Shown here: piece after piece, positions 9,893-41,181 of the stretch
How positions within the stretch are numbered: the stretch's first letter is position 1
Layout of the letters: the number at the start of each line of letters is the position of its first letter
DNA from: Beijerinckia sp. 28-YEA-48
GTDB lineage: Bacteria > Pseudomonadota > Alphaproteobacteria > Rhizobiales > Beijerinckiaceae
NCBI RefSeq assembly: GCF_900104955.1
Contig: NZ_FNSI01000001.1
Location: 3,692,001 to 3,756,000 of the forward strand
Direction of reading: 5' to 3'
DNA: 64,000 nt
Translations under genes and position numbers: made by a program
The notes under the pieces: generated by a model
The model's database searches: none
Told to the model about the DNA's origin: nothing
The model's input: only the letters and a program-made list of their open reading frames with translations

Positions 9893-10708
9893 ATGGACCC
9901 GAGACCAGATGAACTGACCGGGAAAGTGGCGTTGGTGATCGGCGCCGGCTCCATCAAGCCTGACGAGATGAGCAATGGACGGGCGACCGCCATCACTTAC
10001 GCCCGCGCCGGCGCCAAAGTCGTCGCCGTCGATGTCTCAGCTCAGGCCCTGGCGGGAACCACCGATGCGATCACGGCCGAGGGATATGAATGTCTCGGCT
10101 TGGTCGGCGATGCCTCCGACGAAACCGTGGTGAACGAGATCGTCGCCGCGGCCATACAGCGCTTCGGCAGCGTCGACATTCTGCACAACAATATCGGTAT
10201 TCTCACCTTCGGCTCGGTGCTCAAGACCGATGTGGAGACCTGGGACCGCATCATGATGCTGAATGTGCGCAGCATGTTTCTCGCCACCCGCACCGTGCTG
10301 CCGCATATGATCGAACGGAAAGGCGGATCGATCGTCAATATTTCAGCCCTGGCCTCCGCGCGGTTTCTCGGCGCGGCGGTCACCTATATGACATCCAAGG
10401 CTGCGGTAAACGGCTTTACCCAGGCGGTGGCTTTGGAAAACGCCCGCCACGGCATCCGCTGCAACGCCATCCTGCCGGGCTTCATCGATACTCCCGTCGG
10501 TCTCAGCGTCTACGAAGGCGGCGATCCAGTGGAAGCGGCGACGCGCAAAGCCAAGCGCAATGCGGCGCTGCCCAGCGGCAAGGCCGGCACGCCTTGGGAC
10601 ATCGCGCGCGCCGCTTTGTTCCTCGCATCCGATGCGGCCGCCTACATCAACGGCGTGCTTTTGCCTGTTGAGTCAGGCGTGATGTTGCTCTCGCCAACCG
10701 CCGCATGA
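9893..10708 (+). CDS. SDR-family NAD(P)-dependent oxidoreductase with an expanded cofactor loop
   Basis: 271 residues, ATG 9893, AAAGGA upstream. The Rossmann start is LTGKVALVIGAG followed by SIKPDEMSNGRATAITYARA, so the usual GxxxGxG has extra residues before the last glycine. NNIGI stands for NNAG; the catalytic set is Ser in NISALAS, Tyr165 and Lys169 in YMTSKAAV. VDVSAQAL places an Asp at the strand-2 end, which favours NAD. NAILPGFIDTP is the typical SDR substrate-side loop. It is probably the last gene of the run from 5643. Its 3' end overlaps the convergent tyrA gene by 67 bases. Confidence 0.9.
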   Translation: MDPRPDELTGKVALVIGAGSIKPDEMSNGRATAITYARAGAKVVAVDVSAQALAGTTDAITAEGYECLGLVGDASDETVVNEIVAAAIQRFGSVDILHNNIGILTFGSVLKTDVETWDRIMMLNVRSMFLATRTVLPHMIERKGGSIVNISALASARFLGAAVTYMTSKAAVNGFTQAVALENARHGIRCNAILPGFIDTPVGLSVYEGGDPVEAATRKAKRNAALPSGKAGTPWDIARAALFLASDAAAYINGVLLPVESGVMLLSPTAA

Positions 10709-11532
10709 GCGACGCGGGCCGACGATGAGTGCTCGCCGCCTTGCGCTTTGCCTCCGTTCTCCAACTCCTCGGCAAGCTCAGCGGCCAAGCCGAAGAACTT
10801 GCGCCGCATTTCCGCAGCGAACGGATTCAAGCGCTCGATCGCGTCGAACACTTCCGGCGCGTCGTCGCGCACCATGTTGATGCCTTCCATCAGCAGGTCG
10901 AAGCTGCGCGTCGTCATGGTGGAGGGCAAGGGCTCCATCTGCACCAGAACTTTGGCGATGAGATGGGTGAGGCCCTGCACGGCAGCCGCTTCGCGATCAT
11001 GCGCCTCCGGCGTCGTCACGATGACATCGAGCGCGAAATGGCGGCGCAGGAAAGCCGCGATCCTTGGCGTCTGCTGACCGCGGATCGGGCAAAGCGCGAT
11101 CTTCAAACCAGCAAGGCCATTGCGTGCGCTTTGCGGGCCAAACAGCGGATGGGTGCCAACGACATCGACATGAGCGGGCAGCCCAGCCGCCATGATCTGC
11201 GCCGGCAACGTCTTGACCGAGCCGACATCGAGCACCAGCACGCCTGGCAACAAATGCGGCGCGATGGCCGCGACCGCCTGCGCCATGGCCGCCACCGGCA
11301 TGGCCAGAACGACGATCGGGCAGCGCGCCGCGTCGGATAAACTCACGAGGGTGACGCCTTGGGTAACACCTTGCGGCGTTTGCGCATCGCCGGCTGCGTA
11401 TTTGGGATCGTGGCAGCGCAGATCGAAAAACGGATGTAGATGCTCGGCCATCAGGCGGCCGAAGGCGCCGAAGCCGATAAGGCCAAGACGCGGACGTTGG
11501 CGGGGATTTGCAGAAGATTGACCAGACAACAC
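10642..11532 (-). CDS. tyrA: Prephenate/arogenate dehydrogenase family protein
   Basis: 296 residues from a GTG at 11532, preferred because AGAGG lies 6 bases upstream; an in-frame GTG at 11565 adds 11 residues. PRLGLIGFGAFGRLMAEHL is the NAD(P) fingerprint and VVGTHPLFGPQSARNGL holds the catalytic His and the typical substrate loop. The enzyme oxidatively decarboxylates prephenate or arogenate for tyrosine synthesis. There is no fused chorismate mutase and no ACT domain. The last ~35 residues are low complexity and overlap the end of the SDR gene. The gene is preceded by a short leader frame with two Tyr codons and attenuator-like structure. Confidence 0.85.
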   Translation of the reverse strand: MLSGQSSANPRQRPRLGLIGFGAFGRLMAEHLHPFFDLRCHDPKYAAGDAQTPQGVTQGVTLVSLSDAARCPIVVLAMPVAAMAQAVAAIAPHLLPGVLVLDVGSVKTLPAQIMAAGLPAHVDVVGTHPLFGPQSARNGLAGLKIALCPIRGQQTPRIAAFLRRHFALDVIVTTPEAHDREAAAVQGLTHLIAKVLVQMEPLPSTMTTRSFDLLMEGINMVRDDAPEVFDAIERLNPFAAEMRRKFFGLAAELAEELENGGKAQGGEHSSSARVAHAAVGESNITPDSTGKSTPLM

Positions 11533-11569
11533 AATGGACCTCTTGGGACAAACGCCAGAGGTCACGTTC

Positions 11570-11653
11570 CAACCGCTGGCTCGACAGCGGTTGAAAAAGA
11601 CAAAGCCCTTCCTGCCGCTAGATGCGCGGCGGGTAATACGACGTCTGGAAGGG
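11570..11653 (-). promoter_or_regulatory. Candidate transcription attenuator upstream of tyrA
   Basis: Reading the minus strand: CCCTTCC (11653-11647, inside the leader frame) can pair with GGAAGGG (11612-11606); a smaller stem GCCGC/GCGGC (11630-11626 with 11618-11614) is nested between them and has the leader stop codon in its loop. The T-rich tract CTTTGTCTTTTT (11605-11594) follows directly, as in a terminator. A separate 9-bp hairpin CAACCGCTG/CAGCGGTTG (11593-11585 with 11578-11570) comes just before the tyrA start region. Function is inferred from layout. Confidence 0.55.
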
Positions 11654-11665
11654 GGCGTTGCTCAT
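11618..11665 (-). CDS. Leader peptide of tyrA with tandem tyrosines
   Basis: A 15-codon frame, ATG at 11665, reads MSNAPFQTSYYPPRI and stops with TAG. It has a strong GGGAGG ribosome site 4 bases before the ATG, much better than expected for a chance frame. Codons 10 and 11 are both Tyr, followed by two Pro codons, which slow ribosomes. It ends 85 bases before the preferred tyrA start. Shortage of charged tRNA-Tyr would stall the ribosome over the 5' half of the outer stem (codons 5-7) and prevent terminator formation. This would be a tyrosine-sensing leader in the style of the trp and phe leaders. Confidence 0.6.
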   Translation of the reverse strand: MSNAPFQTSYYPPRI

Positions 11666-11741
11666 GGCGCCTCCCTTAGCCGTAAAGGCGCGGCGAGGTC
11701 AATGCGGCAAAACTGGCCCGCACCCCTCAGGCATTCACCCT

Positions 11742-12584
11742 TCAGACTTGCGCGAAGCCGAACAGCCGGGTCGGATTGGTGGCCAGAATGCGGCGCGCCA
11801 GGTCTTCATCACCGATCCAGTCGAGCAACAGGCCGATCAGTTGGCCGACATCGGGCGTCATGTCGCCCATGCGCAGATGCGGCCAGTCCGATCCCCACAG
11901 CAGGCGATCCGGGTTGGCTTTGACCAGCGCGTCGTGGAACGGCCGCAGATCGGGATAGTCGGGCAGCACACGGGAATTGCGGCAGAGCGCCAGCTTCACC
12001 CAGAGGCGCCCTTCAGACAGCAGCGCGCAGAGACGTTGGAAGGCAGGATCATCGACGCCGCGTTCGACATTCGGCTTGCCCATATGATCGAGCACGATGT
12101 CGATGCCCAGCGAAAGCAGGCGCGTCTCCTGGCCGACGATGGTTTCGCAATCGGCCCAGATATGCGCGTGCATTCCGAAAGCGCGCAGGCGCGGCGCGAG
12201 CCGCGCTAGATCGTCGAAGCCGACGCTGCCGGGAAGACGGCCGCCCGTGGCGGTTTTGATTTCGACGAAACGCAAAGCGCGCACGCCGAGCGCGCGCCAG
12301 GCTTCCAGTTGCGCGTCGCTCACCGTTGCATCGGCGATAGCGACACCGCGATAGGCCTCGGGTCTTGCCCGCAGAGCGTCAAGGAAGGCCGCATCATCGA
12401 AGCCATAGACAGACGATGGCTGCACGATCACCGCGCGCGACAGGCCCATCGTCTTGAGTGCCGCGGCATGGCGATCGAGCCAAGCCTCTGGAATATCGCC
12501 GGAGAAGGCCGCCTGAGCGAAGCGCTGGGTTGGCCCGATGACATGGCAGTGGCAATCGCAGGCGCCGGCGGGAACAGACAGCAT
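11742..12584 (-). CDS. Amidohydrolase, 2-pyrone-4,6-dicarboxylate lactonase (LigI)-like
   Basis: 280 residues. ACDCHCHVIGPTQRF carries the metal-binding His-x-His, FGMHAHIWADC and VLDHMGKP carry further His residues, and LLWGSDWPH the Asp, as in amidohydrolase family 2. The sequence order and length match the COG3618/LigI group, which opens the PDC lactone ring in the protocatechuate 4,5-cleavage route, or related sugar lactonases. The ligAB genes 9 kb away in the window make the PDC route attractive, but no LigC dehydrogenase is present. Upstream of it, on the same strand, is a GST gene 15 bases away. Confidence 0.85.
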   Translation of the reverse strand: MLSVPAGACDCHCHVIGPTQRFAQAAFSGDIPEAWLDRHAAALKTMGLSRAVIVQPSSVYGFDDAAFLDALRARPEAYRGVAIADATVSDAQLEAWRALGVRALRFVEIKTATGGRLPGSVGFDDLARLAPRLRAFGMHAHIWADCETIVGQETRLLSLGIDIVLDHMGKPNVERGVDDPAFQRLCALLSEGRLWVKLALCRNSRVLPDYPDLRPFHDALVKANPDRLLWGSDWPHLRMGDMTPDVGQLIGLLLDWIGDEDLARRILATNPTRLFGFAQV

Positions 12585-12599
12585 CTTTAACCGTACCTT

Positions 12600-13217
12600 T
12601 TAGCCGTCTTGCAATTGCGTTGCCTGCGCCGCAGGGCGGGCCTCGAAGGTCTCGTGCCAGCGCGCAAGATGCGGATGCGTAACGCGCCAGGGCTCAGTCG
12701 CGAAGCGGAAATCGCTATAGGCCAGTGCGCAGCCAATGGCGATTTCGCCAATGCCAATGCTGTCGGAGGCGAATGTATCCACCTCCGCTTCAAGATGGCG
12801 CAAGACCGCCGCGCGCTTGAAGGCGAAGGCTTCGATATGCTTCTGCGATTTCTCCCCCGCGGGCCGATCACGCTCGTTGCGGGCCAGGATCAGAATATCG
12901 AGCAGGCCGTTGCCAAGCGCGTGCAGGCGCAGCGCCGCGATGCGCGCATCGCCTCCGGCCGGAATCAGCGGACGGCGACCGGAGATCTGATCGAAATATT
13001 CGATGATGACGTAGGAATCGAACAGAACGCGCCCGTCTTCGAGAACCAGGGTTGGAATCTTGTTCAACGGATTTTCAGGCATCAGGTCGGCATTGGCCGA
13101 CGACATGGCAACGACCGTGCGCAGGCGCTCGATGCGCTCGGCCAGGCCCAGCTCATGGGCGGCCAGCATGACCTTGCGCACATAGGGCGAGCGCGGCGAC
13201 CAATGCAGCTTCATCAT
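12600..13217 (-). CDS. Glutathione S-transferase family protein
   Basis: 205 residues (start at 13217 or the next ATG at 13214). The thioredoxin-like domain begins MKLHWSPRSPYVRKVMLAAH, with a Ser in SPYVRK at the usual active-site place, and NPLNKIPTLVLEDG followed by LFDSYVIIEYFDQ, the cis-Pro and gamma-glutamyl binding region. The C-terminal helical domain runs from about residue 85. It resembles YibF/beta-class-like GSTs, which conjugate or reduce electrophiles with glutathione, or cleave ether bonds. It is probably co-transcribed with the LigI-like gene (15-base gap). Confidence 0.88.
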   Translation of the reverse strand: MMKLHWSPRSPYVRKVMLAAHELGLAERIERLRTVVAMSSANADLMPENPLNKIPTLVLEDGRVLFDSYVIIEYFDQISGRRPLIPAGGDARIAALRLHALGNGLLDILILARNERDRPAGEKSQKHIEAFAFKRAAVLRHLEAEVDTFASDSIGIGEIAIGCALAYSDFRFATEPWRVTHPHLARWHETFEARPAAQATQLQDG

Positions 13218-41096: not shown

Positions 41097-41181
41097 TGGT
41101 GCCCAGAAAAGGACTCGAACCTTCACGCCTTGCAGCACAGGTACCTGAAACCTGCGTGTCTACCAATTCCACCACCTGGGC
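41097..41181 (-). tRNA. tRNA-Leu(CAG)
   Basis: The minus strand folds as a tRNA of 85 bases: acceptor GCCCAGG paired with CTGGGC and the encoded ACCA end; D arm GTGGAATTGGTAGACAC; anticodon arm CAGGT-TTCAGGT-ACCTG with anticodon CAG; a long variable arm as expected for Leu; T arm AAGG-TTCGAGT-CCTT. It reads the Leu codon CUG, the commonest in this GC-rich genome. Confidence 0.96.

Follow-up and report, generated by a model that had tools for sequence, protein, structure and literature searches.

A probable tyrosine-sensing leader ahead of a second tyrA copy in Beijerinckia sp. 28-YEA-48, with a similar leader ahead of tyrS in another genus

The window (the whole stretch of 64,000 nucleotides analysed here) carries a short reading frame with two adjacent Tyr codons ahead of a tyrA-like gene, and this raises the question of whether tyrosine controls the gene through the frame. 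A preliminary description had answered with a tyrosine attenuator consisting of a leader with GGGAGG as its ribosome site, a 7-bp stem followed by a T-run, and a 9-bp hairpin before tyrA. The gene and the frame are as follows.

10642..11532, minus strand: tyrA2, coding for a prephenate dehydrogenase-like protein of 296 aa (PF02153), GTG start by homology and SD
11618..11665, minus strand: leader ORF MSNAPFQTSYYPPRI, reading ATGAGC...ATCTAG from 11665 to 11618
11633..11638, minus strand: Tyr-Tyr codons TAT TAC, with the stop 6 codons further on

The tyrA2 start that fits the homologues was GTG 11532, with the SD AAGAGG. The prephenate dehydrogenase nucleotide-binding domain (PF02153) was matched at E 3.2e-16 on the longer frame of the gene, the dimerisation domain PF20463 reached 20.8 bits (under the cut-off of 22), and the product reached no NCBIfam cut-off. 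The best solved relative was 5t9f, prephenate dehydrogenase 1 (E 3.9e-18), a soybean enzyme, followed by 4wji (3.2e-11). A second tyrA (L002), which passes the NF005694 cut-off and appears to lie directly after a putative hisC, was found elsewhere in the same genome, and the window gene was therefore taken to be an extra stand-alone copy, named tyrA2.

The 15-codon frame with its adjacent Tyr codons was borne out, and 85 bases separate its stop from the homologue-fitted GTG 11532. Two promoter elements were placed ahead of it.

11697..11702, minus strand: -35 box TTGACC of the inferred leader promoter, from the window sequence and TTGAC in relatives
11674..11679, minus strand: -10-like box CTAAGG, 17 bases past the -35 box and 8 ahead of the leader ATG, from the spacing in relatives

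The layout in the window is TTGACC-17-CTAAGG-8-ATG, and the GGGAGG (11675-11670, minus strand) lies 4 bases from the leader ATG and overlaps CTAAGG. The 7-bp stem of CCCTTCC (codons 5-7) with GGAAGGG past the leader stop is present and is followed by CTTTGTCTTTTT, and the 9-bp hairpin CAACCGCTG..CAGCGGTTG occupies 11593-11570 (minus strand). None of 200 dinucleotide shuffles folded as well as 11530-11690 (z -2.78). Further upstream, also on the minus strand (11742-13217), are an amidohydrolase-2 and a glutathione S-transferase gene, and the leader promoter was placed in the short gap after the first of this pair.

A search with the window protein against species genomes gave 53 loci, of which 52 were scanned and the distant L084 was left out. 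Since the scan demanded a Tyr close to the end of a short frame, finding Tyr there is partly conditioned by it, which is not true of the lack of Tyr at other positions, of the distance to the stop or of the genes downstream. Some leaders had already been revealed by a first scan, which required a ribosome site and not Tyr. A frame of 14-17 codons and of one layout was found ahead of tyrA2 in 48 of the 52 scanned loci, in Methylobacterium, Bosea, Mesorhizobium, Aureimonas, Roseococcus, Ruegeria, Shimia, Albimonas and other genera, which we take to represent three orders. No leader of this layout was found in the scanned loci L042, L080, L081 and L082; L042 had a pattern match lacking the layout and no match to the covariance model described below at E ≤ 0.01, and L080-L082 gave no frame.

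Measurements were made on 54 leaders (the 48 scanned, the window and five further loci). The start codon was ATG in 52 and GTG in 2. Tyr stood at the first of the two adjacent positions in 52, at the second in 47 and at either in all 54, while none of the remaining 739 leader residues was Tyr. All 54 leaders had TTGAC within 45 bases upstream, in 53 of them 29-35 bases ahead of the start; for the odd one the script had picked another, nearer TTGAC. If the spacer has 17 bases and the -10 box 6, the start codon comes 6-12 bases later; the 5' end of the RNA is then probably only a few bases away from it, and the leader ORF MSNAPFQTSYYPPRI is probably near-leaderless. The leader stop was followed by the tyrA2 start after 84-109 bases in 49 tyrA2 sequences, with the tyrA starts of L051, L076, L077 and L079 placed by hand. 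In L051 (Methylobacterium mesophilicum), at about 2974-2990, the expected tyrA2 start soon meets an in-frame stop, owing to a start elsewhere, a sequencing error or a broken gene. Because the frame, the Tyr codons, the promoter spacing and the hairpins recur across many genera, the leader in the window is more than a chance frame.

The same comparison altered the earlier picture of the leader. GGGAGG found no support as its ribosome site, given that an SD-like 4-mer was found at that place in only 8 of 54 leaders and in each overlapped the -10-like box by inspection. The check set beforehand, conservation in relatives, held for the short frame and failed for the 7-bp stem, other stems being the ones conserved. 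The 7-bp stem, although real in the window, was kept in 1 of 49 sequences, with a 6-bp form in 1 more, while four others had unrelated 6-bp matches; TTTT occurred in the linker of 6 of 49. The stem with its T-run was therefore rejected as a terminator. Base-pairing between the early leader and the region past the stop is somewhat enriched (mean z -1.3), so a looser form of that stem may exist; the six-segment model given below makes no use of it. The conserved stem is a different one, formed between the stop region and the codons that come after Tyr-Tyr. In the ribosome-free fold of L060 (Bosea type), the early-leader CUGCCUG is paired with CAGGCAG, which lies in the stretch separating segments 4 and 5, and letters like these occur in other Bosea type loci.

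Six segments were defined from the Tyr codons to the tyrA ribosome site, each able to pair with its neighbours.

11626..11632, minus strand: segment 1, CCGCCGC, pairs as 1:2
11611..11619, minus strand: segment 2, AGCGGCAGG, takes in the last two stop-codon bases, pairs with 1 or 3
11585..11593, minus strand: segment 3, CAACCGCTG, pairs with segment 2 or 4
11570..11580, minus strand: segment 4, GCCAGCGGTTG, 3' arm of the 9-bp hairpin, pairs with 3 or 5
11554..11563, minus strand: segment 5, GACCTCTGGC, putative anti-ribosome-site, with 4:5 and 5:6 covarying in relatives
11537..11543, minus strand: segment 6, AGAGGTC, tyrA ribosome site, paired with segment 5 in the window fold

Among 48 distinct sequences, standard pairs made up 85% of cells for 1:2, 93% for 2:3, 93% for 3:4, 80% for 4:5 and 77% for 5:6. 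The alignment misplaces the window, L032 and L033 in segments 5-6, and these rows count against pairing; the window's own segment 5 pairing rests on its sequence, from which 4:5 (GCCAG/CTGGC) was read off, and on the shuffle test of neighbour pairing. In that test, against single-base shuffles of 49 sequences, the mean z was -2.2 for 1:2, -1.8 for 2:3, -4.1 for 3:4, -1.2 for 4:5 and -1.9 for 5:6. Non-neighbour segments gave mean z values of -0.3 to +0.8, except for 1:4 and 2:4 (about -1). For 4:5, the Bosea sequences showed no enrichment (z +0.4) and those of the Rhodobacterales set a weak one (-0.9). A 3:5 pairing was considered as a general switch and rejected at a mean z of -0.3 (about -1.2 in Bosea and in the Rhodobacterales set).

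Cells changed on both sides numbered 15 for 3:4 (2.3 in shuffles), 29 for 4:5 (11.1) and 18 for 5:6 (6.3), and none of 500 shuffles reached the observed values. Covariation exceeded both shuffles and slid versions for these three helices and was slight for 1:2; helix 2:3, whose segments are constrained twice, had no excess among the 48 distinct sequences. Branches of the protein tree with double compensatory changes numbered 8 for 4:5 (0-4 in slid versions), 4 for 5:6 (0-2), 1 for 1:2 (0-2), 1 for 2:3 (0-1) and 2 for 3:4 (0-1). The number of pairs with double changes was not clearly over shuffles (4 against 3.7 for 4:5, 5 against 3.4 for 5:6), and RNAalifold kept only 11 pairs of the same alignment, in the regions of 1:2 and 3:4. 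Single columns follow two partners: column 71 pairs with 60 and 108, and both pairs were kept in 42 of 49 sequences (C-G-C 19, U-G-C 14, U-A-U 9), while column 110 pairs with 69 and 140, both kept in 30 of 49 (U-A-U 14, C-G-U 9, C-G-C 7), with nine C-G-A triples retaining the first pair only. The 9-bp hairpin noted before tyrA is helix 3:4 of this set and stands as a perfect, covarying hairpin. In every one of the 49 folds of the piece after 3:4, 5 or more of the 9 ribosome-site bases or 2 or more of the 3 start bases were paired, a count made with no shuffle comparison; in the folds of Bosea type loci the start codon was fully paired and the SD partly. From these alignments, mutually exclusive conserved helices are predicted to follow the Tyr codons, strongly for 3:4, 4:5 and 5:6 and weakly for 1:2. 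Of these predicted helices, 4:5 and 5:6 cannot form together, and the ribosome site of tyrA lies within 5:6.

A covariance model was built from 44 tyrA2-leader sequences and runs from the Tyr codons through hairpin 3:4. In the genome of the window it gave one strong match (E 4.5e-16) and no further target at E ≤ 0.04, the next one (0.05) being the reverse strand of the element itself. It was then searched in overlapping samples of the class (385 genomes), the phylum (398) and the order (397). All 24 matches at E ≤ 1e-6, the window's own excluded, adjoin tyrA2 and carry a Tyr leader; 21 of the 24 differ from every row of the tyrA2-leader alignment over the first 60 bases, and some are close kin of one another. 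The distance from Tyr to the stop deviates in two (L137 and L143). Exactly one match at E ≤ 1e-4 was found in each of 22 genomes searched whole, always ahead of tyrA2; 17 of these genomes had supplied model rows, and the genome of L057 was not among the 22. In 21 of the 22 an L002-type tyrA, sharing 53-100% identity with L002, was present as well. No match at E ≤ 0.01 was found in 31 loci with other or distant tyrA genes or without the leader (L002, L007-L031, L042, L080-L082, L084).

Weaker matches of the class, phylum and order searches, between E 1e-6 and 1e-4, numbered ten, and nine of these loci were fetched. Two were real, L097 ahead of tyrA2 and L126 ahead of tyrS; L096, L098-L101, L144 and L145 had no tyrA2 or tyrS in the locus and no Tyr frame with the promoter spacing. 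The same outcome was obtained for 20 still weaker matches (L102-L121). L102 has a short Tyr frame and no fitting gene on its strand.

At the L126 locus (E 4e-6) the leader is MIDAFVLARPYYRPLP, a TTGAC lies 30 bases ahead of it, and the next gene is tyrS, coding for tyrosyl-tRNA synthetase (TIGR00234, E 2.1e-111). The tyrS gene was present in 60 of 61 relatives of the L126 genome. Thirty tyrS loci were fetched, all from the genus of L126 (L126 and the range L176-L205; another family of the class), and a Tyr leader was found ahead of tyrS in 29 of them, L190 being without one. These scans required Tyr or Tyr-Tyr, so the presence of Tyr is again partly conditioned. The Tyr-Tyr pair lies exactly 6 codons from the stop in all 29 leaders, the 58 Tyr among 477 residues all fall in Tyr-Tyr pairs, and TTGAC lies 29-31 bases ahead of the ATG. 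The tyrA2-leader model, which includes the Tyr codons, matched 27 of the 30 loci at E ≤ 0.01. In the 26 loci with a clear tyrS start, 91-104 bases separate it from the leader stop; L194, L197 and L199 have no clear start and were omitted from the alignment. The consensus fold of the tyrS leaders has 15 pairs in three elements: the stop lies in a stem, a small hairpin sits in the middle, and the ribosome site lies in a further hairpin. Six of the pairs are changed on both sides in some sequence.

Elsewhere in the class, 174 genomes gave a tyrS match, and no Tyr frame with the promoter spacing was found in the 30 best loci, four of which have Tyr frames that lack it. The model gave one match at E ≤ 0.01 in these 30 loci (L148), on the other strand and away from tyrS. 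The tyrS leader has so far been seen in the genus of L126 only. Because a leader of the same layout serves the enzyme that charges the tRNA, tyrosine or tRNA-Tyr is indicated as the signal, and this is the strongest single argument for it. The tyrosine attenuator proposed in the preliminary description consequently survives as a tyrosine-sensing leader, through the placement of Tyr, the restriction of the model's strong matches to tyrA2 in the 22 genomes searched whole, and the tyrS leaders, and not through the stem, T-run and GGGAGG put forward for it. That a leader attenuator answering to tyrosine or tRNA-Tyr is present at all is, on this comparative evidence, very probable.

Under readings with no tyrosine switch, the short frame would encode a small protein, a peptide or RNA would act in trans, or the dyad would be a DNA operator. 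The dyad is indeed palindromic, and a leader peptide of Sinorhizobium meliloti is described as acting in trans in the accessible part of PMC7298713. Such readings are highly improbable, since they do not account for the confinement of Tyr to the two positions, for the tie of the leader to tyrA2 and tyrS, or for dyad arms that covary with each other and with segment 5.

A second alternative is an arrest peptide, in which the end Y-Y-x-P-x-x would block the ribosome on free tyrosine or through slow incorporation of Pro, much as TnaC is described to block it in response to free tryptophan. The last six leader positions lend it something, the fourth being Pro or Leu in 54 of 54 leaders and the third Ala or Pro in 48. 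It is nevertheless improbable: neither Tyr position is invariant alone (52/54 and 47/54), the place of Tyr is shifted in L137 and L143, and the earlier leader residues vary widely. The codons after Tyr can moreover be explained by their pairing with segment 2, which is CCGCUG/CAGCGG in L062 as against CCGCCG/CGGCGG in Ruegeria.

The reading we favour, and consider likely, is a tyrosine-sensing leader attenuator that works by ribosome stalling and drives tyrA2 mainly at translation. The leader, its Tyr codons, the geometry, the alternative helices and the tie to tyrA2 and tyrS are read from sequence, and we infer from them the translation of the leader, the stalling, the order of folding and tyrA translation as the controlled step. 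Transcription from the promoter would begin very near the leader ATG. Under a shortage of charged tRNA-Tyr, the ribosome would wait at the Tyr codons and mask segment 1, so that 2:3 and 4:5 would form and segment 6 with the tyrA ribosome site would be free (ON). When tyrosine is plentiful, the ribosome would reach the stop codon and mask segment 2, and 3:4 and 5:6 would form (OFF). The position of the ribosome at the Tyr codons would in this way be handed along the chain of helices to a distant ribosome site. Counted from the codon in its A site, a ribosome covers about 13 bases; from the first Tyr this amounts to segment 1 and at the stop to segment 2, which fits the 6-codon spacing of most leaders.

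Equilibrium folding was compared for a ribosome at the first Tyr and at the stop. With the ribosome at the first Tyr, exposure of the tyrA site was over 0.05 higher in 4 of 49 sequences and over 0.05 lower in 6 (window -0.04). When segment 4 was freed, the gain exceeded 0.1 in 6 of 49 (window -0.02); for the tyrS site exposure rose in 4 of 26 and fell in 3. In this model, the position of the ribosome hardly alters the exposure of the site at equilibrium in most sequences. Since equilibrium folding mostly releases no site, the proposed switch would work only if folding during transcription decides; classical attenuators too depend on the order of folding. On balance, the relay to the tyrA2 ribosome site at the level of translation seems to us a reasonably probable arrangement.

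The main competitor is a classical transcription attenuator, in which a stall at Tyr would favour 2:3 and in its absence 3:4 would end transcription before tyrA, intrinsically or with Rho. Helix 3:4 is the strongest pairing of all neighbours, and at least six T follow it within 14 bases in L050, L055 and L094, a hint of termination at that point. The same pattern search found no such T-run in the other 51 of 54 leaders, the window included, and termination would leave the covarying helices 4:5 and 5:6 around the ribosome site without a role, which makes this reading unlikely. With a U-run soon after 3:4 in so few leaders, a plain transcription attenuator does not fit the window's copy, in which the last conserved hairpin is predicted to hold the tyrA ribosome site or start.

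The favoured reading, translational control by a stalled leader ribosome, has known relatives. In translation attenuators of the ermC type, a stalled leader ribosome likewise frees a trapped ribosome site, but ermC senses a drug and is not amino-acid-specific. The trpL attenuator of trpLE(G) in S. meliloti has a 14-aa leader peptide and an RNA 5' end at the leader ATG, according to the part of PMC7298713 available. It resembles the window element in being an alphaproteobacterial leader with regulatory codons and alternative structures. It differs in having Trp rather than Tyr codons and in ending in a transcription terminator, whereas the window element has no U-run and its last hairpin covers the ribosome site. 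The uORFC-8-2 motif precedes cysS in Rhodobacterales, with tandem Cys codons and a terminal U-run in all cases as far as the available text of PMC8632094 describes it; tandem regulatory codons, a short alphaproteobacterial uORF and a tRNA synthetase gene are shared with the Tyr element, whose gene and structure are different. The uORFC-13-1 motif of the same source precedes aroF in Acholeplasma and is also a uORF ahead of an aromatic pathway gene, with a Phe codon, a terminator and another phylum as differences. AroR of Corynebacterium glutamicum, likewise the leader of an aromatic gene, has a Tyr codon between Phe codons; in the accessible sections of PMC11802643 it answers to Phe, not to Tyr, and acts on transcription. 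In the part of PMC6429828 available, genes of shikimate metabolism are linked to two candidate uORFs that contain Phe and Tyr. They too use the pathway's own amino acids, and as they are compared here by description only, they may be the same element.

Among the papers listed in a search of the open-access literature, mostly without subscription papers and with tyrS outside its scope, none showed a tyrosine-only leader attenuator of tyrA, and no tyrA leader appears in the portions of PMC2965389 or PMC2659441 available. Control by leader peptides has been described for several amino acids, and we class the tyrosine form as a variant of ribosome-mediated attenuation. We see an even chance that it makes up an undescribed alphaproteobacterial class, defined by tyrosine-specific near-leaderless leaders with a six-segment relay (1:2 to 5:6) acting on the translation of tyrA2 and, in another lineage, of tyrS. 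Separate lineages use the same layout for tyrosine synthesis and for charging tyrosine onto its tRNA, and this suggests a shared sensor that either passed from gene to gene or originated twice. The element also offers a sharp test of whether a stalled ribosome, working through successive helices, can control translation instead of termination. Searches of Rfam (4227 families) gave no match at E ≤ 10 for window positions 11400-11800 and none at E ≤ 0.1 for 8 loci. The sole above-threshold Rfam match in the window was a tRNA gene at 41100-41181 on the minus strand.
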